A stretch of 64,000 nt of DNA from Nonlabens sp. YIK11 (GTDB lineage: Bacteria; Bacteroidota; Bacteroidia; Flavobacteriales; Flavobacteriaceae): NCBI RefSeq assembly GCF_001413925.1, contig NZ_LBMJ01000001.1:1054001-1118000 (forward strand), given 5' to 3'. The stretch's first letter is position 1; each line of letters begins with the position of its first letter. Shown here in pieces: positions 2,095 to 62,160 of this stretch. Made by a program: the position numbers and the translations under genes. The notes beneath the pieces were generated by a model. It was not told the origin of the DNA. It was given only the letters and a program-made list of their open reading frames with translations, and searched no databases.

Positions 2095-3208
2095 ATCTAC
2101 CATGCCATTCAATAGTGCCTAGACTGCGCGCCGCAACAGCGATGACAACAAATGGATACACAAAAAACTGAATAAAAAAATACCGTGCCCATAAAAATGG
2201 TGTCACTTGGTTGCCTATCAGTAGCACTACCGCATCTGTAAAAAACTTGATGAGCATAACCATGACTCCTAATTTGAAGTCCATCAACTCCAGTAAGAGT
2301 AATATGGGAACGCCCAGAAACAGCAGGTTCATCAAGAATACATGAGCGCTTACCAGTTTGTTGAGTAGGCTTTTAGTGTGCTTCCCCTTACGTGACCATC
2401 GAGCGCGTTGTTCAATGAGAGTTTTGAAAGAGCTTTTGGCAAGTGTGGTTACGATAGCTTCTTCGCTTTTGAGGTAATGACACTGTAGGACATCCTCGGC
2501 GGCTAATTTTTCCAAAAGAAAAACATCATCACCACTTGAAAACTGGTCGTTACCAACATAACCATCAACTAGATTAAAAGCGTTTTTGGAAAAGGAAAGA
2601 TTGGCGCCATTGCAAATAAAAGGTTGGCGCATGGCAAACGACCCAGCCGTGATGGCTTGTAGCGCCATCATTTCCAGCTGTTGTATGGCTGCAATAAAGC
2701 CCTTTCCAGATAACTGTACTGGCGCGGCCACCAGCATCGCATCGGCAAATTGCTGGTAGTGATCGTTAAAGCTTAATAGCCAGGTTTTAGGCAGGACACA
2801 GTCGGCATCTGTGGTTATGATGTGATCATAGCTGGATTGTGAAACCGCAGCGGTGATGCCGTCTTTTTTAGCACTGGCGCTGCGTTTGGGTCGTTCCAGT
2901 AAATGAATCTGTATGGAAGGATTTCCAGAAGCAAAATCCTGAACCACACTTTTGCTTCCATCGGTAGATTCATCGTTGACAAACCACCATTCGCAAGCAT
3001 CTTTAGGGAAATTCATTTGCCGGATGGACTCCAGTAATCTGGGCAAAGCACGTACCTCATTTCTATACACAACGATGATGGAAAAGCGATGATGTTGTTG
3101 AGTTCGCTTTCGCGAAAGCGAACTAGGTATATACCTCAATGCTGGCATGGCGAGTCCCAACAGTATCAAACAGTACCCAAAACTGATGAGCAGTACCACA
3201 AAACTCAT
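2078..3208 (-). CDS. Family 2 glycosyltransferase, membrane-anchored
   Basis: The 376-residue protein has one N-terminal membrane segment, a GT-A catalytic domain and about three C-terminal membrane segments. Visible GT2 motifs are the fold start FSIIVVYRNE (about residues 42-51), VNDESTDGS (77-85), the DxD-like TTDADC (132-137) and QRARWSRKGK (about 266), the QxxRW acceptor motif of processive enzymes. It probably adds sugar from a nucleotide donor to a lipid or surface glycan. Residues 30-35 (SLSRKR) are encoded by a copy of the 16-bp palindromic repeat. It overlaps the upstream flippase-like gene by four bases (ATGA), so the two form an operon. Confidence 0.88.
   Translation of the reverse strand: MSFVVLLISFGYCLILLGLAMPALRYIPSSLSRKRTQQHHRFSIIVVYRNEVRALPRLLESIRQMNFPKDACEWWFVNDESTDGSKSVVQDFASGNPSIQIHLLERPKRSASAKKDGITAAVSQSSYDHIITTDADCVLPKTWLLSFNDHYQQFADAMLVAAPVQLSGKGFIAAIQQLEMMALQAITAGSFAMRQPFICNGANLSFSKNAFNLVDGYVGNDQFSSGDDVFLLEKLAAEDVLQCHYLKSEEAIVTTLAKSSFKTLIEQRARWSRKGKHTKSLLNKLVSAHVFLMNLLFLGVPILLLLELMDFKLGVMVMLIKFFTDAVVLLIGNQVTPFLWARYFFIQFFVYPFVVIAVAARSLGTIEWHGRSIDQE
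3105..3120. repeat. Palindromic repeat copy 1 (perfect), in GT2 gene
   Basis: CGCTTTCGCGAAAGCG core with TT/AA flanks; codes for SLSRKR in the glycosyltransferase. Confidence 0.9.
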
Positions 3209-4089
3209 GAGATCGCGGCTTTTTGAAACTGAGGAAATGGCAACATCAGGCTGCCCAAAACAACCGGCAACACTGTATTAAATAGCCAGACCACCGCAAC
3301 GATGGCGGTCATGGACTCCATGGAGATTGCCAGGGAATCAGCAAAAAAGCTAGCCACGCTCCACTTGAGTGCCAGATCAAAAAGTTGCATGCTGGGAACG
3401 ATGGATACGGTAAGGTACATCGCTGTGATACAGCTTATAATCATAGGTGTTGGTGACATGCTGGAATAGCTTAACAAAAGCAACCAAGAGCTTGAAAACA
3501 AAACGTATCGCAATGCTGATAATCCCAAAATTGGCGCAATGGCAGCCGATAGGGAAAGCCGTTGATGCAATCGTGGCGACAAGATCATTAATATGAGAAG
3601 AATTAAAAAGCCTATAAAAAATATCCACCAAGGCAAATCTGCTAAATACCACCAACCGATTGCTCCAAAGATGACGGTAACTGTCATCTGGCAAAAGTTG
3701 CCGTAGGCTACGGCCTTCAAGATATTCTTGCGCTGGTGTTGTTGGAAATAGGAAGCCTTGAGGGCAAATTCTCCAGCCCGCAAAGGTGTTAGAAAACTGG
3801 CAGCTTGACTGGTGAGGTTTTGGTAAAGGCTTTGGGTAAAAGTGATGCGTTGGCTGGACGTTGCTAGCAGCTGCCATTTAATCGTTTCCATCATCCAACT
3901 GGAAATCGAAAACACCGGCAATAGCATCCAGAAATACAATGGCATGGACTTCAAATAGTCCAAGATATTCTGCTCTTGGAAATCGGTTTGTTGCAAGTAC
4001 CAAACAATGTATCCTACCGTGAATAACGCCACTGCTATCTTGCAGGCCTGCCATAGGAATTGCTTAGATTTGTGGGACACGGCTATCAC
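3205..4089 (-). CDS. Lysylphosphatidylglycerol synthase TM-region-like membrane protein
   Basis: A 294-residue polytopic membrane protein with about seven to eight hydrophobic segments. It fits the flippase-like domain family (LPG synthase transmembrane / AglD / UPF0104) by length, topology and the internal pattern ...LTSQAASFLTPLRAGEFALK.... Family members are thought to move or bind lipid-linked intermediates, and they often sit beside glycosyltransferases, as here. Its last bases overlap the start of the GT2 gene (ATGA). No alternative Met lies nearby, so the start at 4089 is kept. That in turn argues that the divergent ruvC starts at 4108 rather than at the overlapping ATG. Confidence 0.75.
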   Translation of the reverse strand: MIAVSHKSKQFLWQACKIAVALFTVGYIVWYLQQTDFQEQNILDYLKSMPLYFWMLLPVFSISSWMMETIKWQLLATSSQRITFTQSLYQNLTSQAASFLTPLRAGEFALKASYFQQHQRKNILKAVAYGNFCQMTVTVIFGAIGWWYLADLPWWIFFIGFLILLILMILSPRLHQRLSLSAAIAPILGLSALRYVLFSSSWLLLLSYSSMSPTPMIISCITAMYLTVSIVPSMQLFDLALKWSVASFFADSLAISMESMTAIVAVVWLFNTVLPVVLGSLMLPFPQFQKAAIS

Positions 4090-6215: not shown

Positions 6216-6295
6216 TGTTATTCTGTTGTTAAGCCCAGCAGGGTTGACGTGTTTTCCTACTACTTTTAGGTGAAGATTGAAAGTGGAACTTATTT

Positions 6296-6311
6296 CGCTT
6301 TCGCGAAAGCG
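6296..6311. repeat. Palindromic repeat copy 2 (perfect), upstream of DUF547 lipoprotein
   Basis: Perfect core nine bases before the ATG at 6321, within the 105-base gap after punA. Confidence 0.9.
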
Positions 6312-6320
6312 AACTACACT

Positions 6321-7100
6321 ATGAAAAAGATTGCATACCTAATAGCCGTATTGTTGATAGCAGCATCCTGCGTGAGTTCTGGTGGATTACACTACGATTC
6401 CCTACAAAATGGTGAACAAATGGAAACGTCCAGAGCAAATCTGGATCACTCCAATTATGATGAGTTATTAAAGAAATACGTCAATGAGGCTGGTTTTGTA
6501 GACTATCAAGGCCTAGCGACAGAACAGGCAAAACTGAAATCCTACTTGACCTACTTGAGCGTAAACCCTCCAAAATCTGACTGGGAAACAGGAGAGCAAT
6601 TTGCCTATTACATCAACCTGTACAATGCATCGACACTAGATTTGATCATTGACAACGACATGCCTGGCAGTATCAAGGATATTGATGGGCCGCTGGGTCA
6701 GGTCTGGCTTAAGGATTTTATCACCGTCAATGGAAAGCAATACGCACTGGCCGACATTGAAAAAAGTGTTCTTCAAAAAATGGGCGATCCCAGAATTCAT
6801 TTTGCGATCAATTGTGCCAGTTACTCTTGCCCTAAACTATTGAGAACAGCTTATACCGGTAAAAATGTGGATGAACTTATGGATCGCGCAGCTACAGAGT
6901 TTGTGAATTCTGATAAAAACGATTTGAGCGATCCCAACAATCCTAGATTGAGCAGTATTTTCAAATTCTACACTAGCGACTTTACGTCTAATGGGATGAC
7001 GCTTGTAGAATACGTCAATCAGTTTGCCAGTGATAAATTGAATACTGGTGCAAAAGTGACTTATAAGGATTATGACTGGTCTCTTAATAAACAGTCATAA
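6321..7100 (+). CDS. DUF547 lipoprotein
   Basis: The chosen start at 6321 gives MKKIAYLIAVLLIAASC, a lipoprotein signal peptide with lipobox AASC. A GTG at 6270 is in frame, but it would place the palindromic repeat inside the protein and bury the signal peptide, so it is rejected. The body is DUF547: YINLYNASTLDLIID, VWLKDF, HFAINCASYSCPKLL with the paired cysteines, and a C-terminal NYDWSLN-like ending (KDYDWSLN). DUF547 has a papain-like or transglutaminase-like fold by literature proposals, with no proven function in bacteria. It lies between the phosphorylase and the TIGR04283 transferase, a repeated neighbourhood for this family. A paralogue is at 14090-14806. Confidence 0.85.
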   Translation: MKKIAYLIAVLLIAASCVSSGGLHYDSLQNGEQMETSRANLDHSNYDELLKKYVNEAGFVDYQGLATEQAKLKSYLTYLSVNPPKSDWETGEQFAYYINLYNASTLDLIIDNDMPGSIKDIDGPLGQVWLKDFITVNGKQYALADIEKSVLQKMGDPRIHFAINCASYSCPKLLRTAYTGKNVDELMDRAATEFVNSDKNDLSDPNNPRLSSIFKFYTSDFTSNGMTLVEYVNQFASDKLNTGAKVTYKDYDWSLNKQS

Positions 7101-8560: not shown

Positions 8561-8576
8561 CGCTTTCGCGAAAGCG
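8561..8576. repeat. Palindromic repeat copy 3 (perfect), intergenic
   Basis: Perfect core followed by a further AAGCGAAA half unit; lies between the divergent HD hydrolase and GbsR-like genes. Confidence 0.9.
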
Positions 8577-10377: not shown

Positions 10378-11268
10378 ATGAAAAAAATAATTATCGCAGG
10401 TGGCACAGGATTCCTAGGAAATGCCTTGAAAGCTTATTTTCAAAACCAGAACATCCAAATCATATCGCTTTCGCGAAAGCGAACTCCAGACACCACTTAC
10501 TGGAACGGTTCTGAGCTGGGCGAGTGGACAAAACATTTGGAAGATTCAGATGTATTGATCAACCTCGCGGGAAAATCGGTGGACTGTCGATACAATGACA
10601 CCAATAGAAAAGCCATCCATGATTCAAGAATTTACAGCACGCGAGTGCTCAATCTGGCAATGCAACAGGCAATTAGCAAACCCAAGGTTTTCCTCAACGC
10701 AAGTACGGCCACTATCTATGCACACTCAGAAACCCAAATTAATACAGAAGAAAACGGGACTCTAGGTGATGATTTCTCTACAGGAATCGCCAAAGCCTGG
10801 GAAAAGGAATTCTTTTCTGTCCAGCTGGATGGCGTACGAAAGGTAGCCATGCGTACTTCAATAGTTTTAGGCAATGATGGCGGCGCATTCCCAATGCTTA
10901 AAAAGACTACCAAATTAGGGATGGGCGGTAAACAAGGTCGCGGCAATCAGTTCATAAGCTGGATTCATGTACAAGATTTCTGTCGTGCGGTAGATTTCCT
11001 GATACATGCTGATTTGGAAGGCGCCGTCAATGTCACAGCACCTAACCCTATGCAAAACGAGAATTTCATGAAATTATTAAGCCAGCAATTAAACGTTCCA
11101 TTCCGTATCGATCAACCTAAATGGCTCTTGGAAATAGGCGCAATCTTTATAGGTACAGAAACAGAGCTGTTATTGAAAAGCAGATACGTGTATCCGCAAC
11201 ATTTGATGAACTCTGGATTTACTTTTAAATATGATACTGTGGAATCATGTTTGAGCGACCTAGTTTAA
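10378..11268 (+). CDS. TIGR01777-family NAD(P)-dependent epimerase (SDR39U1-like)
   Basis: A 296-residue extended SDR. It begins with the Rossmann motif IAGGTGFLGNAL (6-17), followed by INLAGKSVD, STATIYA, SWIHVQDFC and VNVTAPNP, all diagnostic of the TIGR01777/YfcH family. The family is named epimerase but its substrate is unknown. Residues about 31-36 (SLSRKR) are encoded by a palindromic repeat copy, at a position where other members have a variable beta2 loop. It ends four bases inside the convergent M1 peptidase gene (shared TTAA). Confidence 0.9.
   Translation: MKKIIIAGGTGFLGNALKAYFQNQNIQIISLSRKRTPDTTYWNGSELGEWTKHLEDSDVLINLAGKSVDCRYNDTNRKAIHDSRIYSTRVLNLAMQQAISKPKVFLNASTATIYAHSETQINTEENGTLGDDFSTGIAKAWEKEFFSVQLDGVRKVAMRTSIVLGNDGGAFPMLKKTTKLGMGGKQGRGNQFISWIHVQDFCRAVDFLIHADLEGAVNVTAPNPMQNENFMKLLSQQLNVPFRIDQPKWLLEIGAIFIGTETELLLKSRYVYPQHLMNSGFTFKYDTVESCLSDLV
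10466..10481. repeat. Palindromic repeat copy 4 (perfect), in SDR39U1 gene
   Basis: Perfect core; codes for SLSRKR in the epimerase. Confidence 0.9.
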
Positions 11269-13001: not shown

Positions 13002-14027
13002 TTATTCTTTAGATTTCATGGCGCCGTAGGCATCGCTAACTGTTTTTTGGGCCAGTTTGTCCTGTGGCGTGAATGTTTTTTCAAAGCCGCGTCTGCCATA
13101 TTCTGAATGGTGTTTCCATAAAAAGCCGCCAGCAAACCAGTCCTGTTTCCAGACCAGATCGTATTGAGCCTGCAACAAATGCTTTTGCGCTTCTTCATTA
13201 GATTCTCTGGTTTCATCAGCGGTTAGCCATGGTTCCTTGCCGGCATAATCTGCACTGACATATCCATATTCTGCAAACAGGATTTTTTTATCATGCTTTC
13301 GCGAAAGCGAACTCAATTCAACCATCCATTTCCTCCAACCTTCCATGGCAGATGAAATATCTGGAGTTTTTTGGTCGCTTATCGGGAAATAGGCATCAAC
13401 GCCTATGTAATCCATTTGATCCCAAAAAGGAACGTTCTTATAGCTGTCCCAATTCCCGGCATAAGTCAGTTTACCTTTGTAGATGGCTTGTATTTTCTGA
13501 ATCAATCGGTTCCAAAATTCGGGTCTCGCAGCTACAAAAGACTCCAGTTCAGTCCCGATGCAGAACATGGCGGCGTTTGTATTTTGGGCCACTTGAGCAT
13601 AGTCCAGAATGAATTTCTCATAGGTCACCTCGAGAGTATCCCATCTGGAATCGTCTGGCATGTCTATCGTACCGGTATAGATACCGCGGCCTATCCATAT
13701 TTGAGGTTTGAGCATAACTTTCAACCCTTTGGATTGAAAAGTTTCAATGGTGGCTGTGGTGCCATCGACACGCTCGCCCCACCATTGCCGTTCACTGTTA
13801 TGAATCACGGCAGGATTCTCAAGATCCCGCATGAATCCGTAAGGATGCACCGCGACATAGTTGGCGTTGTAATTGAGTAAAGGTTGTACGATCTCTTCAG
13901 TAATGGCATTCCTTGTGGCCACAAAAGAGACACCTCTAATTAATTTTGGCGCGGCAGGTGGTTCAGTTTGAGCGTTGCAGGCACTAAGTAAAATGCCTAA
14001 AAAGCAAAGCGATAGGAGTTTATTCAT
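13002..14027 (-). CDS. GH113-like glycoside hydrolase lipoprotein
   Basis: The 341-residue protein has lipobox LSAC (MNKLLSLCFLGILLSAC) and a TIM-barrel of the GH113/GTA-like type. The sequence reads RGVSFVA...NYVAVHPYGF...LKPQIW, then CIGTELESF (presumed acid/base Glu) and FAEYGYVS (presumed nucleophile Glu). GH113 enzymes are beta-mannanases, but flavobacterial relatives are varied, so substrate is left open. About residue 245 the sequence SLSRKH is encoded by a palindromic repeat copy with one mismatch. No SusC/D pair is adjacent. Confidence 0.85.
   Translation of the reverse strand: MNKLLSLCFLGILLSACNAQTEPPAAPKLIRGVSFVATRNAITEEIVQPLLNYNANYVAVHPYGFMRDLENPAVIHNSERQWWGERVDGTTATIETFQSKGLKVMLKPQIWIGRGIYTGTIDMPDDSRWDTLEVTYEKFILDYAQVAQNTNAAMFCIGTELESFVAARPEFWNRLIQKIQAIYKGKLTYAGNWDSYKNVPFWDQMDYIGVDAYFPISDQKTPDISSAMEGWRKWMVELSSLSRKHDKKILFAEYGYVSADYAGKEPWLTADETRESNEEAQKHLLQAQYDLVWKQDWFAGGFLWKHHSEYGRRGFEKTFTPQDKLAQKTVSDAYGAMKSKE
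13294..13309. repeat. Palindromic repeat copy 5 (one mismatch), in GH113-like gene
   Basis: First base is T instead of C; codes for SLSRKH. Confidence 0.85.
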
Positions 14028-14089: not shown

Positions 14090-14806
14090 CTACTTACCGT
14101 TCAAAGCCCAGTCATAATTCATGAATTGCACGACAAACCCATCAGGTATCATGTCTTCACGGTAGCGATTCAGGTATTCTATCAAGGTCTGATTTTTAGT
14201 GAAATCTGCATTGTACCAGTCAAAAATCTTGGAAGCATAGACCTTTTTTTCATGCATGTCTAGTTTTACCAGATTGGGATTGTTTATAGCGGCCTTGGTC
14301 GTTTTTTTGAGCATGAACTCTACATTTTCTGCTGTGTAGGGTTTCATGGATAATGGCGGGCAACTTACCGCACCACAAACCAGCGCAAAATGTAGGCGCT
14401 CGTCTGGGAATCTTTTCAACAATATTTCCTTCTCCAATTGATTCAAGGAAACCTTCTGGCTTCCTAATGTGTAAACTTTTTCATCAAAAAAGTTGTCCTT
14501 ATCCATAACCGATTTGATGGGATAATGGTCCACCACACCTTTGATGACAAATAAATTATAGGCGTTGATTAATAACGCTTTACTTTCATTGTTGGTCAAT
14601 TGATCCAGCTCGATCTTTTCCAATGATTTTAAGGCCAAATCCAGATTCTGCGGATTCTTTTTGATCGCCGCATAGTTCACATTGCCATTGGCTACCTGGT
14701 TATTGAGCAGTTCTTTTGTGGCTGTGGAGAAGGTGGATAGTTGCGCTTTCGCGAAAGCGAAACTCCCCAAAATCATCAATACCAATATTCTAATTCTTAA
14801 ACTCAT
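14090..14806 (-). CDS. DUF547 secreted protein (second copy)
   Basis: The start at 14806 gives MSLRIRILVLMILGSFAFAKAQ, a signal peptide; an upstream ATG at 14935 would add 43 non-family residues and is rejected. The body is DUF547 (INAYNLFVIKGVVDHYPIKSV, LHFALVCGAVSCPPL with the paired Cys, and a C-terminal NYDWALN). It is a paralogue of the DUF547 lipoprotein at 6321-7100 but is a soluble export rather than a lipoprotein. The FAFAKA of its cleavage site is encoded exactly by the palindromic repeat at 14744-14759. Confidence 0.87.
   Translation of the reverse strand: MSLRIRILVLMILGSFAFAKAQLSTFSTATKELLNNQVANGNVNYAAIKKNPQNLDLALKSLEKIELDQLTNNESKALLINAYNLFVIKGVVDHYPIKSVMDKDNFFDEKVYTLGSQKVSLNQLEKEILLKRFPDERLHFALVCGAVSCPPLSMKPYTAENVEFMLKKTTKAAINNPNLVKLDMHEKKVYASKIFDWYNADFTKNQTLIEYLNRYREDMIPDGFVVQFMNYDWALNGK
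14744..14759. repeat. Palindromic repeat copy 6 (perfect), in DUF547 signal peptide
   Basis: Perfect core; codes for FAFAKA of the signal-peptide cleavage site. Confidence 0.9.
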
Positions 14807-14945
14807 AAATTGATTGTTACACGCTGTTGCGCCTAAGTAATTTACAACAATCAAGCCATTTACTACGACGCTAAAATTCAGGAAAAATGAACCCGAATCA
14901 CGGAAGTATGTAACATGACTTCCGGCTAGTTTCATCGTGATTTAT

Positions 14946-18287: not shown

Positions 18288-18329
18288 AGAACCACTGATT
18301 TTATTTTGCAGAAAACTGTTTTGAGAGTT

Positions 18330-18345
18330 CGCTTTCGCGAAAGCG
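18330..18345. repeat. Palindromic repeat copy 7 (perfect), intergenic
   Basis: Perfect core in the 149-base gap between polyferredoxin and SDR genes. Confidence 0.9.
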
Positions 18346-18436
18346 AATACATCATCCATCATTTTCTAGACATCAGATTTTCTAAGTTCCTTAACTGCCT
18401 TGCCTTGATTTAGTTTCTAACTTAGAAATAAAAATC

Positions 18437-22441: not shown

Positions 22442-24232
22442 TTATATTTCGCTAGTTTCAAAATCACCTCTCAACCTGCGGTAACGACGTCTGGCATCAA
22501 TAAAAAAGATACTGTCTGCATGGTTGTAGATGATTTTCTCATAAATCTTTTGAGCCTCTTCTGGTTGCTGTAATTTTTCTTCCAGCAGCATTCCCAAACG
22601 GTAGAGAGCATCGTCTGCCAGGATTCCATCGCCAAAGTTGTCTATAATCGACCTATAATTTTCTTGGGCTTTTTGCCATTTTCCATCCAGTTCGAACAGC
22701 TTTGCCTGTTGTAAAAGCGCCTCGTCTTCAATGTCGTCTCCTTTATGCTCTTGCAATAAGGCCTCGTAGAGAGATAAGGCCTCTTGGTTTTTGTTTTGAT
22801 ATTGTTTTAGTTCCGCTTTCGCGAAAGCTTTCAACGCCACAAACGTCGTGTCATACAAAGAGTGATCACTTATGGTCAGGCTTAATTGCATGGCGTCGTT
22901 TGCGATCAACTTACTGGTCGCACCACGCAAGACTTTGAGTTGCGTCAGGCTCCATTTAAAATCACCCTGAAAATAACTGGTACGCGCCACCTTGAACTGA
23001 GATTCTTGGGCAATTTCAGAATCTGGTAGGTCATTTTGTATCTGGCTGTATAAAATGAGGGCACGATTGAATTGCTCCTGCAACACGAGAATATCTGCCA
23101 GTAGCATTTTTACCTCTGCCTTTTGAAAGCTGGCTAGTTTTTGTTGCTCCAGCGCTGTCAACAAATCAATTGCCTGCTGGTAATCACCAGATTTAAACGC
23201 CATAAAGTTGGCATAATCCAGCTGTAGTAAAAAAGATTCTTCTGCTTTACCATACTGCTCGAGCATGGATTCATACTTAGTTTTTATTGCTGGGTAGTCT
23301 GTAACTTGGGCATTTGCCGTTTCTATTTTGAGTTGTAGCACTTGAGCGAGATATCTAATACGCTCCACCTGGCTGGTCTCAACGATGTATTCCAGAATAT
23401 TTTGTGCCGCGAGATCGTCATTCTCTTCATTTGCTGTGGCGGCCAGATCCATTAGGCCAAACATATTTTCCTTAGTCCGATTATAAATCGCCTTTTCCTG
23501 GATGAAGGCCGCGTTAAAATCCTTTTGCTGCACAAACAGCCAACTCAAGATCTGATTGTACAATAGTTTAGGCTCTTTACGCAGGCGCAATAACAAAGCT
23601 TTACGTAATGCCTGGTTACTTTCTGTAGCGGCATCGTCAGTAACATACTGTGAGAACACTGCCTGAATACGCGGCACGATCTGCTCATTATTTTCCATGA
23701 GGTCGATGTATTTTTCAAACATCAACTCCAACTCACCTTGTTCACCATACAGCCTTGCGGTCTGGAAGTTGTAGTCCATACTGGGATCTACTTTCATGGT
23801 GCGCTCATAACTTTCTATGGCTTCTTTAAGAAGACTGCGTCTTTCAAATGACTGTGCAATGTTGTATCCATATTTAGGAATGGAATCAATTTGCTGTATC
23901 GCGATTTGATAATAATCGCTGGCAAGACTGTCTTTGCCTTGCAGACTGGCGTTGTAACCTTTTTCTATAGGGAACAAGAGCTTGTTGTAGGCCGTTTTTT
24001 CACCTGTGTCCAATAAACTATCTGCACGTTTATAATTTTCCAACTGTTGCTGGAAACCTACCATGCGAAATAGGATATTAAAATTCCGATTGTTCGTAGC
24101 ATAAGCCTTTGCATAGATGGCATAGGCTTTTTCATATTCTCCTTGATCTGCATAGTTGTCTGCCAGTTGCAAGTTTTGGGCGTGACCCAAACAGGCAAAG
24201 GACATCATGAGAAAAAGAAAGATATACTTCAT
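22442..24232 (-). CDS. Large secreted TPR protein
   Basis: A 596-residue exported protein with signal peptide MKYIFLFLMMSFACLGHAQ. Tetratricopeptide repeats cover nearly all of the mature sequence (for example GEYEKAYAIYAKAYAT near the start and GDYQQAIDLLTALEQQ, LYEALLQEHKGDDIEDEALLQ later). The last third resembles YbgF/BamD-type TPR proteins. A periplasmic scaffold role is likely. Near residue 472 the KAFAKAELKQ helix contains a palindromic repeat copy read as AFAKA, which fits the Ala-rich TPR helix. Confidence 0.85.
   Translation of the reverse strand: MKYIFLFLMMSFACLGHAQNLQLADNYADQGEYEKAYAIYAKAYATNNRNFNILFRMVGFQQQLENYKRADSLLDTGEKTAYNKLLFPIEKGYNASLQGKDSLASDYYQIAIQQIDSIPKYGYNIAQSFERRSLLKEAIESYERTMKVDPSMDYNFQTARLYGEQGELELMFEKYIDLMENNEQIVPRIQAVFSQYVTDDAATESNQALRKALLLRLRKEPKLLYNQILSWLFVQQKDFNAAFIQEKAIYNRTKENMFGLMDLAATANEENDDLAAQNILEYIVETSQVERIRYLAQVLQLKIETANAQVTDYPAIKTKYESMLEQYGKAEESFLLQLDYANFMAFKSGDYQQAIDLLTALEQQKLASFQKAEVKMLLADILVLQEQFNRALILYSQIQNDLPDSEIAQESQFKVARTSYFQGDFKWSLTQLKVLRGATSKLIANDAMQLSLTISDHSLYDTTFVALKAFAKAELKQYQNKNQEALSLYEALLQEHKGDDIEDEALLQQAKLFELDGKWQKAQENYRSIIDNFGDGILADDALYRLGMLLEEKLQQPEEAQKIYEKIIYNHADSIFFIDARRRYRRLRGDFETSEI
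22814..22829. repeat. Palindromic repeat copy 8 (one mismatch), in TPR gene
   Basis: Last base is T instead of G; codes for AFAKA in a TPR helix. Confidence 0.85.
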
Positions 24233-27868: not shown

Positions 27869-27921
27869 AATAACGCAAAGTGTGAGGTTTAAAGTTAGCT
27901 AAAAGGCGGTTTGTTTTAGTT

Positions 27922-27937
27922 CGCTTTCGCGAAAGCG
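27922..27937. repeat. Palindromic repeat copy 9 (perfect), intergenic
   Basis: Perfect core between ribF and pth. Confidence 0.9.
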
Positions 27938-27961
27938 AATTAACCTCAAACACCACTGCAT

Positions 27962-35729: not shown

Positions 35730-35745
35730 CGCTTTCGCGAAAGCG
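35730..35745. repeat. Palindromic repeat copy 10 (perfect), intergenic
   Basis: Perfect core 34 bases before the TTG of dCMP deaminase. Confidence 0.9.
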
Positions 35746-35779: not shown

Positions 35780-36208
35780 TTGAAACCTGAAAAGCAACAT
35801 AGATACGACGTCGCCTACCTCAAAATGGCACAGGAATGGGCACAACTTTCCTATTGCAAGCGTCGCAAAGTAGGAGCGCTAATCGTGCGCGACCGCATGA
35901 TCATAAGTGATGGTTATAACGGCACGCCTAGTGGTTTTGAGAACTTTTGTGAGGATGAAGAAGGCTATACCAAATGGTACGTGTTGCATGCCGAGGCTAA
36001 TGCAATACTAAAAGTGGCCGCTTCTACACAATCTTGTACGGGCGCAACGCTCTATATTACCATGTCGCCTTGCCAGCAGTGCAGTAAATTGATCCATCAA
36101 AGTGGCATCAAACGTGTAGTATACCTCAATGCCTATAAGGACGATAGCGGTCTGCAATTCCTCGAGAAAGCAGGCGTTATTACAGAACAGATTAGCCAAC
36201 TCGATTGA
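35780..36208 (+). CDS. dCMP deaminase family protein
   Basis: The deoxycytidylate deaminase fold of 142 residues converts dCMP to dUMP for dTTP synthesis. The zinc site is LHAEANAI (catalytic His-Ala-Glu, about 72-74) with SPCQQC (about 95-100). The N-terminus reads MKPEKQHRYDVAYLKMAQEWA, matching the flavobacterial form only if the TTG at 35780 is used. The stop overlaps the ATG of the protease gene by one base (TGATG), so they are coupled. Confidence 0.92.
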   Translation: MKPEKQHRYDVAYLKMAQEWAQLSYCKRRKVGALIVRDRMIISDGYNGTPSGFENFCEDEEGYTKWYVLHAEANAILKVAASTQSCTGATLYITMSPCQQCSKLIHQSGIKRVVYLNAYKDDSGLQFLEKAGVITEQISQLD

Positions 36209-40030: not shown

Positions 40031-40672
40031 GTGTCACAAATCATCAAAGAACACTTCCCACATATAACAGATCGTCAACAGGAGCAATTTGCACAACTGG
40101 AAGGATTGTATCGAGAATGGAACGCACAGATCAATGTGATCTCCAGAAAGGACATTGATGAATTATACACGCGCCATGTTTTACACTCGCTGGGAATTGT
40201 AAGTGTAGTTCGCTTTCGCGAAAGCTTACCCAACACACCTGGTGGCACAAGAGTCATGGATGTGGGAACCGGCGGCGGCTTTCCTGGAATACCGCTGGCG
40301 ATCATGTTCCCAAAAACCAAATTCCATTTAGTCGATTCCATTGCCAAAAAACTGAAGGTCGTGGATGCGGTCGTAGAAGCATTGGGACTGGAAAACGTCA
40401 CCACAGAACACGGTCGAGCCGAAAAAGTAAAAGGCAGATTTGACTTCATCGTCTCCAGAGCCGTGACTAACATGACCGATTTTGTAAGCTGGACACGCAA
40501 TAAAGTGCGTAAGGACAGCTACCACGAGATAGAAAATGGGATACTTTACCTAAAAGGCGGCGACCTCACCGAAGAACTCAAACCCTTCAAACACGCCGAC
40601 ATCTACGAACTGGATCAGGTCTTTGAAGATCCTTTTTTTGAGACCAAGAAAGTGGTGCATTTGCCGTTGTAG
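40031..40672 (+). CDS. rsmG: 16S rRNA (guanine527-N7)-methyltransferase
   Basis: RsmG methylates G527 of 16S rRNA. It has the SAM motif VMDVGTGGGFPGIPLAIMFP (about 75-94), VDSIAKKLKVVDAV, and VSRAV. Start is a GTG. Residues about 60-64 (VRFRES) contain a palindromic repeat copy with one mismatch, just before the SAM domain and in a loop where length varies between species. The protein is 213 residues, normal. Confidence 0.95.
   Translation: MSQIIKEHFPHITDRQQEQFAQLEGLYREWNAQINVISRKDIDELYTRHVLHSLGIVSVVRFRESLPNTPGGTRVMDVGTGGGFPGIPLAIMFPKTKFHLVDSIAKKLKVVDAVVEALGLENVTTEHGRAEKVKGRFDFIVSRAVTNMTDFVSWTRNKVRKDSYHEIENGILYLKGGDLTEELKPFKHADIYELDQVFEDPFFETKKVVHLPL
40211..40226. repeat. Palindromic repeat copy 11 (one mismatch), in rsmG
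   Basis: Last base is T instead of G; codes for RFRES. Confidence 0.85.
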
Positions 40673-43927: not shown

Positions 43928-43943
43928 CGCTTTCGCGAAAGCG
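43928..43943. repeat. Palindromic repeat copy 12 (perfect), intergenic
   Basis: Perfect core in symmetric flanks TTA/TAA between pruA and apaG. Confidence 0.9.
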
Positions 43944-45616: not shown

Positions 45617-46873
45617 TTAATTGGAAATATTGGCGCTATTGCCAGAACCGTAACCTATCAACTGGTCATAACGGCCGCCAGGCTCTCGGTAGTAGGCCAG
45701 AACGGTGTATTCATTTTCAGTTTGCCATTTGTTACCGCTTATCAATCCTGGCAGTTCCATGCCATTTTCATCAATCACTGTATATCTATAATTGTAAAAA
45801 CCTTGCTTGAGCAACATGGTCACTTCGTACAAATTAGTCTGCGGATTAAAAGTCATCAAATTCTCATCCTGATACTGGTGACCGTTGTAATTACCGGTAA
45901 CAAAAACACTGGAATTCTCTGGAAGAACTGCTAATGGGTCTAGTTTGAAGTGCACCTTGAGATATTCTGCTTGAATGTCATTATCCTCATTAGTAGTTGT
46001 AGTCACCAGAAAGTTGCCATTGATGTCAGGAAAATATGTGTATTCCTGATAGAGTCGTGAGGCATCTATAAAAAGAAAAGATTCATACAATTCATTGCGA
46101 CGTACATAGTCGATATTGACATTAGGTGATCTAAAATCCCTGTTTTCAAAATTGAGGTATTCATTTCCAGCCCAAAAGGACGTTGGCCCATCATAATCAT
46201 ACAATTGTTTGTTGCCTAAATTAAATTGTGGCTGGATATTATAGATCGCCGTGTTGAGGTCGCTGTTTTGAATGATGGCAACCTTAAGGTTTTCCTTTGG
46301 GTTAATGAAGTTGATCTGTTCAGAATCTACAAAAAACTCCACACGCTGCTTGACCGATACAAATTTGAGATCTCGAGCGCGTCTTATGGCAACACCTACT
46401 AGCGACTTGTCATCCAGCAGCATGAATTTTCTGGAAAAGACCAATTCGCGGTCGTCATTATAAAAATGGACCATGTAATTGCCACTTACGGTAAGCGCGG
46501 TAGTAAATTGATTGGGAATGGTCAACTCATAATGTGAGTAGGATTGAAGTGTGGTAAAGGAGTTGCGATAGTTAAGTATACGCCTGTCATCCACACCTCT
46601 CAAAAATTCATTTTTAAAAAGAGCGCTAGGCTTCCAGTCATAATCGTAATGCTCGATCTGGTAAAAATAATCAGCCTCGTCGCCTATGATATCATCAAAA
46701 CTAATGTTGATGGTTTCTCCCAGTTTGTAGACTGGCACCATATTTTCTGGTGGTTTGTTGAAGGTAACCGTTTTGATGTAGTCAGGATCATTGACTAGGT
46801 CTGAAAGTTCTTGCGCTTCCGCGAAAGCGGAACAAAAAACCATTGTAATGAACATGAAAATAATCGACCTCAT
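45617..46873 (-). CDS. DUF5103 (type IX secretion plug-like) protein
   Basis: The start at 46873 gives a signal peptide MRSIIFMFITMVFCSAFAEAQ; an ATG at 46942 is rejected. The mature protein, about 398 residues, begins ELSDLVNDPDYIKTVTF and is all-beta, matching DUF5103, whose member PorV/Plug-like proteins associate with the SprA translocon of type IX secretion. The cleavage site AFAEAQ is encoded by a one-mismatch copy of the palindromic repeat. It is divergent from nqrA. Confidence 0.82.
   Translation of the reverse strand: MRSIIFMFITMVFCSAFAEAQELSDLVNDPDYIKTVTFNKPPENMVPVYKLGETINISFDDIIGDEADYFYQIEHYDYDWKPSALFKNEFLRGVDDRRILNYRNSFTTLQSYSHYELTIPNQFTTALTVSGNYMVHFYNDDRELVFSRKFMLLDDKSLVGVAIRRARDLKFVSVKQRVEFFVDSEQINFINPKENLKVAIIQNSDLNTAIYNIQPQFNLGNKQLYDYDGPTSFWAGNEYLNFENRDFRSPNVNIDYVRRNELYESFLFIDASRLYQEYTYFPDINGNFLVTTTTNEDNDIQAEYLKVHFKLDPLAVLPENSSVFVTGNYNGHQYQDENLMTFNPQTNLYEVTMLLKQGFYNYRYTVIDENGMELPGLISGNKWQTENEYTVLAYYREPGGRYDQLIGYGSGNSANISN
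46814..46829. repeat. Palindromic repeat copy 13 (one mismatch), in DUF5103 signal peptide
   Basis: T to C at 46819; codes for AFAEA at the cleavage site. Confidence 0.8.
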
Positions 46874-47012
46874 AGAATGAAAATTGGCTGGATAAATATA
46901 AATCAAAAACCTGTGGCAATCAGGTTGCCAAAGCAGTGCCAAAGCAACCTTAAATAACTATTTAGAAGTAATCTAAATAAAATTCACAGGATCAACTGAA
47001 ACCTTTATTACT

Positions 47013-50533: not shown

Positions 50534-50549
50534 CGCTTTCGCGAAAGCG
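50534..50549. repeat. Palindromic repeat copy 14 (perfect), between nqrC and nqrD
   Basis: Perfect core inside the nqr operon, 17 bases before the nqrD ATG. Confidence 0.9.
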
Positions 50550-55020: not shown

Positions 55021-55036
55021 CGCTTTCGCGAAAGCG
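55021..55036. repeat. Palindromic repeat copy 16 (perfect), intergenic
   Basis: Perfect core between the sugar transporter and glycosylasparaginase genes, 31 bases from the latter's stop. Confidence 0.9.
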
Positions 55037-56044: not shown

Positions 56045-58984
56045 TTATTCAATAGTGATTTCGTCAACAAATATCCAGGCCGTTCCTTTCATGGGATAGC
56101 CTAGGTGCCAATCCGGTAACGCACCGTAATTGGTGGCCACAACCTTTACATACCTTGCAGCCATTTTTTCAAAAGAACTATTTGCAGTATAGATCTCGCT
56201 AATTTCTTCCCTTCCTGTTTCAGGCAGTTCTATTGTTTTTGAAGTAATAACTTCTTGTTTGGAATCCAGCAGCATTATCTCCACATCTTGCGGGTAGAAT
56301 ATCCAACTTCTTTGTTCTTTAAGAAAATTGATGCTCACCTCGTTAACGCTCTTTAGTGATCCAAGATCTACCATAATATCAAGATCTTGATTTTTAATTC
56401 CTTGCCAGGCGCCAGAACGGTAATCTCTTGTTCCCTTTAAACCGTCAATCAAAGCATCCGTGCCGCCGGCGCTATATTCATTTGCAAATTGATAATTAAG
56501 AGTCACAGATCGATCTGCATCATATTTGTAAAAGTCTGTTTGTATCGTGTCGCTATGAATGCCTTTATAAACCGAGTAGGTTTTTAGAAGTTGGGAGTTA
56601 GCAATAGTGATGGTAGAATCATATTTGGTAAATCGCTCATCGTTGAGTGAATAATATATATCCTGATTGGAGCTGGTAGTTTCCAGTTCTATCTCCGTTT
56701 GGTTGGGAAAAGTGATGTCACCTTTTTTGATGAATGGTGGCGTTACAATTGAGTTATTTGTGATTCTGGTAGTTAGTGTTTGATAAAGCGAACTACCCCA
56801 AGAATCTGGAACGGTTGACATATCAAATTCCCAAAACCCGCCAGCCATTAACTGTTCGTGAGTAATAAAAGCAGTATTGTGCGATCTGCTATTAACCCAA
56901 TCATTTGGGTCTTCGTCCATATGCATGGCGTCAATATATTTTCCGCTACCGTTTTTCTTGATGGTCAACGATGTTCCATTTTCAAAATGAATCGTAGCCT
57001 TATCAAATAAGGGTGATCCTATGGCATACTGATTACTGGCTGGAGTTACCGGATAAAATCCTAGCGAACTCAATACATACCAGGCACTCATTTGACCGCA
57101 ATCTTCATTGCCCGAAATTCCGTAAGGTGTATTGGAGTATAGGGTCGTCAAGATTTCATGAACTTTTTCTTGAGTCTTCGAGGCTTTACCAACATAATTA
57201 TATAAATAGGCCATATGATGGCTGGGCTCGTTGCCGTGCGCATATTGCCCGATGAGGCCGGTAATGTCTGCTTGGTTGCGACCAGAGGTTTCAGCTGCAG
57301 CGGTAAATAGTTTATCTAGATGTGCTTCATAATTAGCCTCGCCACCCATTAGCCTTATGTGTCCATTGATATCTTGTGGCACATACATGGAATATTGCCA
57401 GGCATTGGCCTCAGTATAATTAAAGTTTACCTCAAAGGGATCAAATGGTGAAAACCACGTATTTCTGTAGCGACCTTGAAAAAAGCCAGTTTCTGGATTG
57501 TATAGATTTTTATAGTTCTGCGCTCGTTTAATGAAAACTTCATAGTCTGCTTTGGCGCCTAGCGCCTTTGCCATTTGGGCTATGGTCCAATCATCGTAGG
57601 CATATTCCAGAGTTTTTGAAACCGACTCACTTTCTTCTTCCACCGGTATGAAACCTAATTCTTTATAAGATTTCAAACCTAAATGATCCTGCATCGCACT
57701 GTGCTTCATGGCTTCAAAGGCCTTGTCCACATCATAATTCCTGATTCCTTTGAGATAGGCATCTGCAATTACAGGAACGGCATGGTAGCCTATCATACAA
57801 CCCGTGTAATTACCGCTAAGATCCCAGATAGGCATGATGCCGCCTTCATCATATTTTGCCGTAAAAGTGTTGATGTAATCGTTGGTTCTTTTTTGATCAA
57901 CAATCGTGTATAGTGGATGAGCGGCTCGATAGGTGTCCCATAAAGAGAAAACGGTGTAGTAATCAAAATCTTTGGTTTGATGAATCTCTAGATCCATGCC
58001 TCGGTAACGACCATCTACATCTTGGTATAGATTTGGAGCCAGCATAGTATGATACAAAGCTGTGTAGAAGGTGCTGACTTTTTCCTCATCGCTATCTTCC
58101 ACAATGATTTTAGAGAGTTCATTTTCCCAAGTCGTCGTCGCTTCCTGACGTATATCCTCAAAGGACTTCACTCCAATTTCCTCTATTAGGTTATTCTTTG
58201 CTCCATCTACATCAACTGCAGAAATTCCTATTTTGATAATTATTGGTTCGTTATTTGGATTCTCAAACTCTAGCGCTCGCTTCGTGGGTGAATCACCTGC
58301 ATCTTGATCCCAGTTTTTTATGGGATGCGAGGTTTGAATATAATAATACAGCATCTGCTTACTCGCCCAGGCGCTGGAGAATCTTTTTCCAGAAACCTCT
58401 GTCGCAGATTCAAGACTCAATTCATGCTCCAACAATTTATCACGATGTTCCAGGTCCAAAATCAGAAATTGATTAGAGCTATCTGGATATTGGTAGCGAT
58501 GCATGCCACTTCTGCGCGATACGGTCAGTTCCACATCAATATTAGTGTCATCCAGATGGACACTGTAGTATCCAGGACTCGCTTCTTCTTTTTCATGAGA
58601 AAATGTAGAGCGGTATCCTTTCTGTCCATCGGCGCCATTGTTTAAAATGGGCTCGTTGGTAGGCATTAAAAGCACGTCGCCATAGTCGCTCACTCCAGTA
58701 CCACTCAGGTGTGTATGGGAAAAACCATAGATCTTATCATCGCTGTAATGGTAGCCGCTGCAGCCGTCCCAACCTTCCAGTCGGGTATCTGGACTTAATT
58801 GCATCATTCCAAAAGGCATCGTGGCGCCAGGATAGGTGTGCCCATGACCGCCAGTTCCCACAAACGGATTCACATATTCCGTTACAGGTTTTGCGGCGAT
58901 GGCCTCGATAGGATCTTCAGTTTTGTCGCAGGAAATGAACCAAGCCAAAGACATGGCTATCAAACACAGCTTGCCGTATTTCAT
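56045..58984 (-). CDS. GH92 alpha-mannosidase lipoprotein
   Basis: A 979-residue protein. The lipobox FISC is followed by the GH92 start VTEYVNPFVGTGGHGHTYPGATMPFGMMQLSPDT (read 34-67), with HLSGTGVSDYGDVL, SLWDTYRAAHPLYTI, QYAHGNEPSHHMAYLY and GNEDCGQMSAWYVLSSLGFYPVTPAS later. GH92 enzymes are calcium-dependent exo-alpha-mannosidases that trim N-glycans. The C-terminal part past about residue 780 adds a chitobiase/HEX-like domain and an F5/8-type beta-sandwich (about 850-979), probably for glycan binding. Together with glycosylasparaginase and FucP-like transporter it makes a compact N-glycan unit. Confidence 0.95.
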   Translation of the reverse strand: MKYGKLCLIAMSLAWFISCDKTEDPIEAIAAKPVTEYVNPFVGTGGHGHTYPGATMPFGMMQLSPDTRLEGWDGCSGYHYSDDKIYGFSHTHLSGTGVSDYGDVLLMPTNEPILNNGADGQKGYRSTFSHEKEEASPGYYSVHLDDTNIDVELTVSRRSGMHRYQYPDSSNQFLILDLEHRDKLLEHELSLESATEVSGKRFSSAWASKQMLYYYIQTSHPIKNWDQDAGDSPTKRALEFENPNNEPIIIKIGISAVDVDGAKNNLIEEIGVKSFEDIRQEATTTWENELSKIIVEDSDEEKVSTFYTALYHTMLAPNLYQDVDGRYRGMDLEIHQTKDFDYYTVFSLWDTYRAAHPLYTIVDQKRTNDYINTFTAKYDEGGIMPIWDLSGNYTGCMIGYHAVPVIADAYLKGIRNYDVDKAFEAMKHSAMQDHLGLKSYKELGFIPVEEESESVSKTLEYAYDDWTIAQMAKALGAKADYEVFIKRAQNYKNLYNPETGFFQGRYRNTWFSPFDPFEVNFNYTEANAWQYSMYVPQDINGHIRLMGGEANYEAHLDKLFTAAAETSGRNQADITGLIGQYAHGNEPSHHMAYLYNYVGKASKTQEKVHEILTTLYSNTPYGISGNEDCGQMSAWYVLSSLGFYPVTPASNQYAIGSPLFDKATIHFENGTSLTIKKNGSGKYIDAMHMDEDPNDWVNSRSHNTAFITHEQLMAGGFWEFDMSTVPDSWGSSLYQTLTTRITNNSIVTPPFIKKGDITFPNQTEIELETTSSNQDIYYSLNDERFTKYDSTITIANSQLLKTYSVYKGIHSDTIQTDFYKYDADRSVTLNYQFANEYSAGGTDALIDGLKGTRDYRSGAWQGIKNQDLDIMVDLGSLKSVNEVSINFLKEQRSWIFYPQDVEIMLLDSKQEVITSKTIELPETGREEISEIYTANSSFEKMAARYVKVVATNYGALPDWHLGYPMKGTAWIFVDEITIE

Positions 58985-59031
58985 TTTAAAAAATTATCGA
59001 CTAAATATAGGAAATAGCTGGTGGATGAATT

Positions 59032-59047
59032 CGCTTTCGCGAAAGCG
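59032..59047. repeat. Palindromic repeat copy 17 (perfect), intergenic
   Basis: Perfect core 17 bases upstream of a TAnnTTTG box, at the expected -33 position. Confidence 0.9.
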
Positions 59048-59064
59048 AACTTACCTACAGTCGT

Positions 59065-59072
59065 TATCTTTG
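59065..59072 (+). promoter_or_regulatory. -7 element of the 59077 gene
   Basis: TATCTTTG matches TAnnTTTG and ends four bases before the ATG, so the transcript is probably leaderless. A palindromic repeat (59032-59047) occupies where the -33 element would be. Confidence 0.5.
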
Positions 59073-59076
59073 TACA

Positions 59077-59439
59077 ATGACACCATTGACAACTCAAGAA
59101 CTACATCAGCTTGCAATGAATATCGTGGGCAAGGAAATGGAGGAGCAAGGCTTTGAATTTCTAGCCGTGAATTCCAAGCCCAAAAAGGACCCGCAGTTTG
59201 TGGCCCTCAAAAACAAAAAGTTACATTTTGTTGTGGTGCGCGCCATCACGTATCCAGCAAATCCCGTAGAGTATGACGAGAAGTTGATGAAGACGGTTTA
59301 TGATCACGCGGTAAAATATAAAGCCAGAACCTACTTTGCTGGTGTAGGTCTGGCTAATTCTAGGGATTATGACATGCCTGTCCATCATGAGGACGATTAT
59401 GTGGTCAACTATGCTGGTCTGATAGAAATCAAGGATTAG
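59077..59439 (+). CDS. Small conserved protein near Nqr/ApbE
   Basis: A 120-residue soluble alpha/beta protein (ELHQLAMNIVGKEMEEQGFEFLAVN... KDPQFVALKNKKLHFVVVRAITYP). Similar flavobacterial proteins sometimes carry the misleading name Na+-NQR subunit F, probably from genome proximity. No catalytic motif, cofactor site or signal peptide is visible, so function is unknown. It ends four bases inside the convergent SDR gene and lies just before the apbE locus. Confidence 0.75.
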   Translation: MTPLTTQELHQLAMNIVGKEMEEQGFEFLAVNSKPKKDPQFVALKNKKLHFVVVRAITYPANPVEYDEKLMKTVYDHAVKYKARTYFAGVGLANSRDYDMPVHHEDDYVVNYAGLIEIKD

Positions 59440-60359: not shown

Positions 60360-61406
60360 ATGAAATATCTAGCAGTAATATCGTTTTTGTTTCTCTTGAG
60401 TTCGTGTAAAAAGACTGATCAGGACCTTTCTAGAACCACACAGGAGTTATACGGCAACGCCATAGGCACGACTTATTCTATCAAGTACTTTTCTAACGAG
60501 ACCATGGATCTAGAGCCTAAAGTAGATAGTCTGATTGACCTTTTTAATCAAAGTATGTCCACTTGGGTTCCAGATTCCAAAATCAACCAGATCAACGATG
60601 GAAAGGACAGTGTCGCGGTAGGAAAGGAGTTCAAGGAAGTTTTTGATTATGCCCAAGAAATCTATCGTAAAACCGATGGCTATTTTGATCCAACTGTAGG
60701 GAATCTAGTGAATGCCTACGGCTTTGGCGCTGACGGCAAAAAGGAGAAAATTCCACAAGATTATCAAATCGATAGCTTATTGCAATACGTGGGTTTTTAC
60801 AAGCTGGATATGGTACCTGCCGGAAAAGAAGACCAGTATTTTGTGGAAAGCAGCCATAGCGGTATTTATCTGGAATTCAATGCGATTGCTAAAGGTACTC
60901 TGGTAGATTACATCGCCAGAATGCTGGAGAATCATGGTATCACAGATTACTTGGTAGAAGTTGGTGGTGAGGTCACCGCTGCGGGAATCAACCTTGAGAA
61001 GCAACAAGAGTGGAGTGTAGGCATTGATGATCCCACACAAGTTGCTGGCCAGAGAGAACTCGTCACTGCGGTCAAACTAAAAGATAAGGCCATGGCTGGC
61101 AGTGGCAATTACCGCAAGTTCAAGATTGATCAGGAATCTGGAAAGGAGTACGTGCATACCGTAAATCCTTTGACCGGAAAGGCAGTTCCCAGTGAGGTGC
61201 TAGGTGTCAATGTAATTGCAGAAAACTGTACGCTGGCAGATGGATATGCCACGGCATTTATGGCGATGCCACTAGAAAAATCCAGAAGGCTGCTATCAAA
61301 TCTTCCTGAAATTGAAGTCCTGATCATGTATATGGGAACCGACGGTAAGCTCAAGTTTGAGACCACGCCAGGCTTCAATCAGTACGTGAAACAACCTATT
61401 TTGTAA
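60360..61406 (+). CDS. apbE: FAD:protein FMN transferase
   Basis: ApbE attaches FMN to Thr/Ser of NqrB, NqrC and related proteins. The 348-residue lipoprotein (LLSSC, Cys16) shows GNAIGTTYSIKY, FNQSMSTWVPDSKINQIND, GVTAAGIN-like GGEVTAAGIN, MAGSGNYRKF and VNPLTGKAVPSEVLGVNVIAENCTLADGYATAFMAMP (read 271-307). All are typical. It is the expected maturation factor for the nqr operon 7 kb upstream on the same strand, although three catabolic genes on the other strand separate them. Confidence 0.95.
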   Translation: MKYLAVISFLFLLSSCKKTDQDLSRTTQELYGNAIGTTYSIKYFSNETMDLEPKVDSLIDLFNQSMSTWVPDSKINQINDGKDSVAVGKEFKEVFDYAQEIYRKTDGYFDPTVGNLVNAYGFGADGKKEKIPQDYQIDSLLQYVGFYKLDMVPAGKEDQYFVESSHSGIYLEFNAIAKGTLVDYIARMLENHGITDYLVEVGGEVTAAGINLEKQQEWSVGIDDPTQVAGQRELVTAVKLKDKAMAGSGNYRKFKIDQESGKEYVHTVNPLTGKAVPSEVLGVNVIAENCTLADGYATAFMAMPLEKSRRLLSNLPEIEVLIMYMGTDGKLKFETTPGFNQYVKQPIL

Positions 61407-62160
61407 CAACGGGAATAAGTTCGCCAGCCGCTAGACGGTAATAATCGATCTTTTCTGGAGATAAGGTATTGGTGTAATCACAAGCCTCTACTTTAAATCC
61501 AACCTCGCGCAGGCGATCAAAATAATCCATACCATAAATGCGTACATGATCGTATTGACCAAAAATGCGCGCACGTTCTGCACGATTTGTGATGGAATCG
61601 TCCTCAAAAGTTTTGGCGCGATCATTTTCCAGCGGTACTTGAAAAATGGCCTTGCCGCCAGGTTTGAGAACGCGATACAATTCTTTCATGGCCGTGGCAT
61701 CATCAGGAATGTGCTCCAGAACATGATTACATAAAATCATGTCAAATGCGTTATCCTCAAAAGGCAGGTTGCAGATATCTGCCTGAACATCTGCCAGTGG
61801 TGAATTAAGATCTGTAGTGGTGTATTGAATGAGTTCGCTTTCGCGAAAGCGATGATAAAAACATTGCTCTGGTGCAAAATGAAGCAGCTTTGTAGGTGCG
61901 GTAAACAAACGCGTTTCTCGCTGCAAATACAGCCATAACAATCGGTGGCGCTCTAGCGATAGAGTAGAAGGTGACAGTACATTCTCGCGCACCTTGCCAT
62001 AGCCATAGGGTAAAAAACTACGGAATTTCTTCCCATCAATAGGATCTTCATAGCGATCACCGCGATACCACCAGGCAAGTAAAGGCCGCACGGCATAACT
62101 CGCACTGATCAACCATGGCCGTGGTATCAAGTTGAGAAAGAATTTGAATAGTTTTTTCAC
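61396..62160 (-). CDS. Class I SAM-dependent methyltransferase
   Basis: A 254-residue protein with a methyltransferase-type-11 core: LLHFAPEQCFYHRFRESEL, LPFEDNAFDMILCNHVLEHIPDDATAMKELYRVLKPGGKAIFQVP (read 131-175). The SAM motif I is atypical (HFAPEQ, about 92-97). RFRES at about residue 102-106 is encoded by a palindromic repeat copy and lies near motif I. Substrate unknown. It overlaps apbE tail to tail by 11 bases. Confidence 0.88.
   Translation of the reverse strand: MKKLFKFFLNLIPRPWLISASYAVRPLLAWWYRGDRYEDPIDGKKFRSFLPYGYGKVRENVLSPSTLSLERHRLLWLYLQRETRLFTAPTKLLHFAPEQCFYHRFRESELIQYTTTDLNSPLADVQADICNLPFEDNAFDMILCNHVLEHIPDDATAMKELYRVLKPGGKAIFQVPLENDRAKTFEDDSITNRAERARIFGQYDHVRIYGMDYFDRLREVGFKVEACDYTNTLSPEKIDYYRLAAGELIPVVTK
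61836..61851. repeat. Palindromic repeat copy 18 (perfect), in methyltransferase gene
   Basis: Perfect core; codes for RFRES near the SAM motif. Confidence 0.9.

Follow-up and report, generated by a model that had tools for sequence, protein, structure and literature searches.

Copies of the palindrome in the window and beyond

The stretch of DNA analysed here, 64,000 nucleotides from the flavobacterium Nonlabens sp. YIK11 (NCBI RefSeq assembly GCF_001413925.1, contig NZ_LBMJ01000001.1, forward-strand positions 1,054,001 to 1,118,000) and referred to as the window, carries a 16-bp palindrome that is repeated within genes and in the gaps between them. The palindrome is the core of a symmetric site of about 50 bp that occurs some 700–800 times in this genome, lies evenly about 4 kb apart and is retained in syntenic places. 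Allowing up to three mismatches, the 16-mer occupies 17 places in the window, 13 of them exact and four with one mismatch (at 13294, 22814, 40211 and 46814), against a chance expectation of 0.14 places (100 dinucleotide-preserving shuffles; largest value 1). An earlier note on this DNA had counted 18 copies, on average about 3.6 kb apart; its 13 perfect and four one-mismatch copies are borne out, as is the spacing (3.67 kb measured), but the composite copy that it listed in addition is not a separate place. Nine of the 17 copies lie outside our gene calls, which are long open reading frames (ORFs) with no curated annotation; the earlier division was ten intergenic and eight genic copies of 18. 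The copies are listed below, with occupancy in other Nonlabens species where it was compared.

3105..3120: exact; inside the gene at 2078-3208 (minus strand), about 100 bp from the gene start
6296..6311: exact; 26 bp into the ORF at 6270-7100 (plus strand), which is called from a GTG start
8561..8576: exact; in a divergent intergenic region and running on into GAAAGCGAAA, which is the composite just mentioned
10466..10481: exact; 88 bp into the epimerase-like gene at 10378-11268 (plus strand)
13294..13309: one mismatch, at the first base; inside the GH113-like gene at 13002-14027 (minus strand)
14744..14759: exact; inside the DUF547 gene at 14090-14935 (minus strand)
18330..18345: exact; in the tandem intergenic region 18287-18437
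22814..22829: one mismatch, at the last base; inside the TPR gene at 22442-24232 (minus strand)
27922..27937: exact; in the intergenic region 27868-27962
35730..35745: exact; in the intergenic region 35704-35780; kept in the very close G004, the sole species with an assessable orthologous place
40211..40226: one mismatch, at the last base; inside gidB/rsmG at 40031-40672, where it encodes RFRES; in 10 of 10 other species (nine with one mismatch, G002 exact)
43928..43943: exact; intergenic, upstream of the P5C dehydrogenase gene; in 9 of 10 other species
46814..46829: one mismatch, at an internal base; inside the T9SS plug gene at 45617-46942 (minus strand), close to its 5′ end
50534..50549: exact; within the nqr gene cluster, between nqrC and nqrD; all 10 other species have an exact copy
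55021..55036: exact; between the genes at 53655-54971 and 55067-56041 (both minus strand), overlapped by a plus-strand ORF of 103 codons with no Pfam match; in 5 of 7 assessable species
59032..59047: exact; in the divergent intergenic region 58984-59077; in 5 of 6 assessable species
61836..61851: exact; inside the methyltransferase-domain gene at 61396-62160 (minus strand), where it encodes RFRES; exact in 6 of 6 assessable species

The abundance extends far beyond the window. The 3.26-Mb genome to whose main contig it belongs (G000) holds 680 exact copies, where base composition predicts about 0.0003, and no copy of a reversed control 16-mer; the frequency outside the window is therefore nowhere near random. 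All 23 Nonlabens genomes searched contain 180–737 exact copies, and none occurs in the 16 genomes from other genera drawn with them. A search of 397 genomes at the level of the family found at least one exact copy in 48 of them, namely four Nonlabens, one member of a second genus (G242, 630 copies), one genome of a third (G226, 153 copies) and 42 others with 1–13 copies each. The second genus, which we take to be Dokdonia (unconfirmed), is rich throughout, with 138–711 exact copies in 18 of 18 genomes. At the level of the phylum, 11 of 395 genomes match, ten of these with one or two copies. Counts of the 12-bp core in the family divide the genomes in the same way: the window's genome has 776, G242 has 917 and G226 has 445; another 98 genomes match with no more than 21 each, and 293 have none. 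The third genus thus has 445 cores and only 153 complete 16-mers, which implies divergence of the motif's outer bases in this genus. No comparable palindromic dialect was found in other Flavobacteriaceae, the search covering 39–164 kb for each named genus group, plus 528 kb of loci pooled from metagenome-assembled genomes.

Copies of the palindrome are mostly either intact or absent: 744 kb of Nonlabens sequence contain 147, 31, 16, 7 and 28 copies with zero, one, two, three and four mismatches. In 13 of 19 one-mismatch copies the mismatch sits at the first or last base, so that the working core is taken to be GCTTTCGCGAAAGC.

A genome-wide iterated palindrome in a defined clade recalls HIP1 (GCGATCGC) of the cyanobacteria, and the earlier note's term, a highly iterated palindrome, is apt as a description, given the strong over-representation across the clade. 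Deviations from HIP1 are likewise biased to the outer bases, and Chi sites, uptake oligomers and HIP1 form classes of over-represented oligomers that are typically 5–10 nt long, according to Elhai (2015, PMC4390886). A HIP1-type origin, in which a solitary methylase and linked mismatch repair would create and keep the palindrome, is nevertheless quite improbable. The unit is longer (a core of 14–16 bp plus arms), sparser, evenly spaced and syntenic, and the HIP1 octamer itself, with two copies in 64 kb, is not the element. Within the window, TTTCGCGAAA occurs only inside the element. Methylases of PF00145 and PF01555, the two families searched, are absent from the 680-copy genome of the window; among 12 copy-rich and 12 copy-poor genomes, hand-chosen from fairly complete ones, PF00145 is present in six rich and six poor and PF01555 in seven rich and five poor. 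A short-motif methylase mark is disfavoured by this confinement of TTTCGCGAAA and by the lack of either family in the window's genome, and the methylation role that had been suggested for the palindrome has no support so far from the families searched.

An evenly spaced dyad with C-poor arms

The symmetry continues on both sides of the 16-mer, and the 5′ arms are poor in C. At 251 Nonlabens sites, C makes up 1–8% of the bases at 5′ arm positions 3–12 against a background of 21%; T is preferred at positions 2, 3, 6, 9, 11 and 12, A at position 4 and G around positions 14–15. At 81 sites of the second genus, C amounts to 0–14% over the same positions against 19%, and T is again preferred at 2, 3 and 6, with A rather than T at position 1. 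Both sets include orthologues, and the sites within them are not independent. The bias fades by about 17–25 bp, giving way to a weak alternation of T and A, and it is found alike in genic sites (117; C fraction 0.089) and intergenic ones (61; 0.050).

Within individual sites, the two arms vary separately. Measured over 109 sites, arm symmetry at flanking positions 2–15 lies about 1.5 standard deviations (sd) or less from shuffled pairs; position 1 stands 2.4 sd above them, position 16 some 2 sd below and position 18 some 2 sd above. Because covariation of the arms stops at the first flanking base, they are better read as two independent DNA half-sites than as an RNA stem. An intrinsic terminator with an RNA hairpin was accordingly rejected as a candidate, the copy in the nqrC–nqrD gap also speaking against it. 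More generally, a bidirectional transcription terminator or the operator of a regulon is very improbable. Such a function would fit the excess of intergenic copies, 38 of 109 sites in 464 kb of which 9.4% of bases are non-coding. Against this, the other 71 sites are genic and occupy all three reading frames (17, 17 and 37), the nqrC–nqrD place is occupied in all ten other species, and no regulon would be expected to have some 700 evenly spaced sites.

The distances between sites are far more regular than random placement would produce. Among the first 100 of the 680 exact copies, the mean distance is 4148 bp and the coefficient of variation (CV) 0.48, compared with a mean CV of 0.99 and a minimum of 0.70 in 20,000 random draws; four of 99 gaps are shorter than 1.5 kb, where 29.8 would be expected. 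With genic and intergenic placement matched, the window itself has a CV of 0.408 (P 0.00005). In 20 stretches of 20 kb sampled from the same genome there are 2–7 sites each. Six gaps of at least 7.5 kb turned up in 20 sampled stretches, two of the six being truncated where a stretch ends. The G+C content of these gaps is 0.34–0.43, in five of the six 0.391 or lower, and no tRNA occurs in the ten stretches checked for it. The even spacing and the extended arms, together with the absence of the site from a plasmid and from isolated phages described below, are additions to what the earlier note had recognised.

Retention in place and occurrence on phages and a plasmid

Retention was compared for eight of the 17 window sites across ten other Nonlabens, G004 among them. 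Twenty of the 80 site-by-species cells were unassessable for want of a nearby alignment, and in 54 of the remaining 60 a copy lies no more than 300 bp from the expected place. The copy in the T9SS plug gene is found within that distance in eight of ten species, in five of these shifted by 106–141 bp. At 25 orthologous intergenic sites, with G004 left out, identity is 0.995 in the core and 0.447 and 0.419 in the flanks, although the core value is inflated by construction, since copies with at most two mismatches were required and 4 of 29 cells had none. Exact copies are retained where aligned DNA is 72–81% identical. Between genera, all five genomes from two other genera have a copy with 0–2 mismatches near the P5C dehydrogenase gene, on its start side and at a distance of 50–100 bp. 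The nqr copy is found one gap further on in other genera, between nqrD and nqrE, being exact in G431, G433 and G446, with two mismatches in G242 and missing from G226. Judged from these alignments, the place of the sites is kept within the genus and partly kept between genera.

The nqr genes themselves may have a more varied history. The named records nearest to the window's NqrA are from Nonlabens, but in 6 of 22 matching Nonlabens genomes NqrA is only 50–52% identical to that of the window, as distant as in other genera, which suggests replacement of nqr genes within the genus.

At the two genic sites compared in this way, the encoded protein differs from that of outgroups. In gidB, RFRES stands at the site in 10 of 10 Nonlabens, in a loop of RsmG seven residues longer than in the five outgroups aligned, and at least one copy may therefore have come from a small insertion rather than from substitution. 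In the gene at 61396-62160, RFRES is present in the six of ten Nonlabens that aligned and in none of the 14 outgroups aligned (of 15 outgroup loci given), eight of which have RFRK. In these two genic copies, the palindrome does not simply follow a conserved protein motif, since the outgroups are without RFRES there; rather, the protein sequence yields to the DNA site. Overall, either selection or a drive just as strong maintains the site.

Conservation of this kind bears on the proposal, also made in the earlier note, of a REP-type element or a mobile miniature repeat. Repetitive extragenic palindromic (REP) sequences and bacterial interspersed mosaic elements (BIMEs) share with the present element their many palindromic copies, and a Y1 transposase (Y1_Tnp) is encoded in 5 of 12 copy-rich genomes. 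The element is, however, mostly genic, its positions are syntenic and its flanks diverged, and among the comparisons listed copies differ from site-less homologues mostly by substitutions without gaps, with exceptions such as position 6893 of L034 against L032 (two regions around low-copy sites in other genera). The Y1 transposase is absent from seven of the 12 rich genomes (G000, which is that of the window, and G019, G022, G431, G433, G445 and G226), and 7 of the 12 poor genomes have it. A mobile repeat is thus already contradicted and scarcely credible as an explanation.

The site is also found on the DNA of some phages of temperate type. A viral scan gave 41 matching stretches from 30 contigs, figures that have no denominator because contigs with no match were not counted. 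Five phage contigs were examined, all carrying the site: four have structural genes (terminase, portal, capsid, tape-measure, sheath or baseplate), and two have integrases, one of them also among those four. The terminase of one contig, which has six exact copies in 27.9 kb, is nearest to that of Winogradskyella phage Peternella_1 (54.5% identity), a phage that we take to be Mu-like. Several viral contigs of high G+C content have a single copy each and are perhaps unrelated. L168, which has more copies than any other phage contig analysed, also encodes a thymidylate synthase-like protein at 10598-11296.

Two isolated Nonlabens phages, P12024S and P12024L, have no site within three mismatches in 35.7 and 35.0 kb, respectively; no integrase is among the features shown for them, and their own ERF/YqaJ-type recombination genes are annotated. 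Likewise, contig C2 of the window's genome (loci L212 and L213), a plasmid of about 21 kb with Rep3 and Mob_Pre genes whose ends overlap by 8 kb in the assembly, has no site within two mismatches, where 4.4 would be expected at chromosomal density. The plasmid also carries genes for an AbiEii toxin-like protein and a TIR CAP12-like effector, and a 139-bp tandem repeat at 18661-18911. Further Nonlabens or Dokdonia plasmids were not among the 40 of 430 PLSDB records listed, and a taxonomy search gave no Dokdonia phage name.

Candidate readers, roles and carriers

A perfect dyad made of independent half-sites leads us to infer a homodimeric, sequence-specific binder. We tentatively favour the view that the sites bind a dimeric protein with a role in chromosome architecture or maintenance, because the site is long, perfectly symmetric and syntenic over large divergence and because close pairs are avoided. 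One homodimeric DNA-binding protein, common to Nonlabens and the second and third genera, would recognise the site, and the sites would be docking points for a chromosome-wide system of architecture or maintenance, such as a nucleoid-associated or segregation-type protein. This system would need one site every few kb on resident DNA and draw no gain from close pairs. Long-resident DNA, that is core genes and temperate phages, would gain the site largely by base substitution, and autonomous plasmids and non-resident phages would not. Chromosome organisation, one of several roles that had been listed for the palindrome, remains the leading one in this provisional sense.

Palindromes read by dimeric chromosome-organising proteins are well represented by parS and by the Noc-binding, matS and SlmA-binding sites, and parS and the Noc site are 16 bp long. 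The present element differs from all of these in sequence and in its hundreds of sites spread evenly over the whole chromosome. A ParB/Noc-like reader finds no support in the one family searched: the ParB helix-turn-helix family PF17762 has one universal copy, a second is present in two rich genomes (G014 and G019) and three poor ones, and ten of the 12 rich genomes have the universal copy only, with no excess in the rich set.

Several observations weigh against an architectural role. No binding protein was found, PF17762 being the one family tested. In G431, of the second genus, 99 gaps have a CV of 0.91, indistinguishable from random (P 0.19); leaving out the one gap of 38 kb brings the CV down to 0.62, lower than in any of the 20,000 random draws (minimum 0.70), and 2 of 99 gaps are shorter than 1 kb where 18.5 would be expected. 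The 20 stretches of the window's genome show no clear trend from origin to terminus or along the chromosome, and the role is therefore not specific to either. The absences are those from one plasmid and two related phages, which is thin evidence, and the viral scan covers only contigs with a match. Finally, a bias in DNA uptake or conversion, acting as a molecular drive, could yield the same pattern.

This last point underlies the main rival, a DNA-uptake or transfer signal similar to the uptake signal sequence (USS) of Pasteurellaceae or the DNA uptake sequence (DUS) of Neisseria, which we consider unlikely, if a serious contender. Here, a receptor would prefer the dyad, and biased transformation followed by recombination would create the drive. 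USS show even spacing, and drive by itself is enough to make them accumulate; like the present element, USS and DUS consist of a core and a flank, are specific to a clade and occur in genes and gaps. An uptake signal would predict all of these features and also the absence from the plasmid and the two isolated phages, and even dispersal is indeed seen in the window's genome and, more weakly, in G431. Known uptake sequences are, however, shorter and not palindromic, unlike this perfect dyad, and keeping exact copies in DNA as diverged as that compared above would demand a strong ongoing drive. It is important to point out that sequence alone gives no basis for choosing between an architectural role and an uptake-type signal. 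If the latter were true, it would to our knowledge be the first in Bacteroidota.

A Chi-like recombination hot spot is improbable but is retained because the 5′ strands are keto-rich. The site would control a nuclease of the RecBCD/AddAB type, and its G/T-rich 5′ strand would form the tail loaded with RecA, which prefers G/T-rich strands; the 5′ arm is keto-rich on both strands. The density is near that of Chi in E. coli, and the site is present in phage contigs and absent from the isolated phages annotated with their own ERF/YqaJ-type genes. Known Chi sites are, on the other hand, asymmetric oligomers of 5–8 nt recognised on a single strand, quite unlike a perfect dyad of 14–16 bp. Taken together, the element has traits of Chi, uptake oligomers and HIP1 but fits none of them, being longer, symmetric and evenly spaced.

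The architectural reading can be extended to a chromosome-marking system, a possible but doubtful proposal. A dimeric protein would read the evenly spaced dyad of about 50 bp, which would set long-resident DNA apart from plasmids, non-integrating phages and some low-G+C stretches and would divide the chromosome into units of about 4 kb; temperate phages would evolve the site, and heavy-metal islands would carry it to other genera. Few dispersed motifs shape whole chromosomes, and those that do are functionally important; this element joins a long perfect dyad, strongly even spacing and a syntenic retention that overrides protein sequence, in culturable marine bacteria. If it is architectural, it would provide a natural ruler of about 4 kb for studying how units of the chromosome are put together.

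Low-copy carriers in other genera were followed in 20 regions around their sites (L031–L050). Thirteen of these share blocks of at least 1.9 kb with L031 or L032, with 97–99.9% identity in places between different genera of Flavobacteriaceae. Shared sequence alone had made conjugative elements a candidate, which was dropped when the main carrier proved to be a heavy-metal efflux island: the L031 block codes for efflux pumps, metal ATPases and a multicopper oxidase. Conjugation genes are present in L045, to which L048 and L049 are linked only via DNA similarity. The palindrome on the heavy-metal island suggests that the island has passed through a palindrome-rich host.

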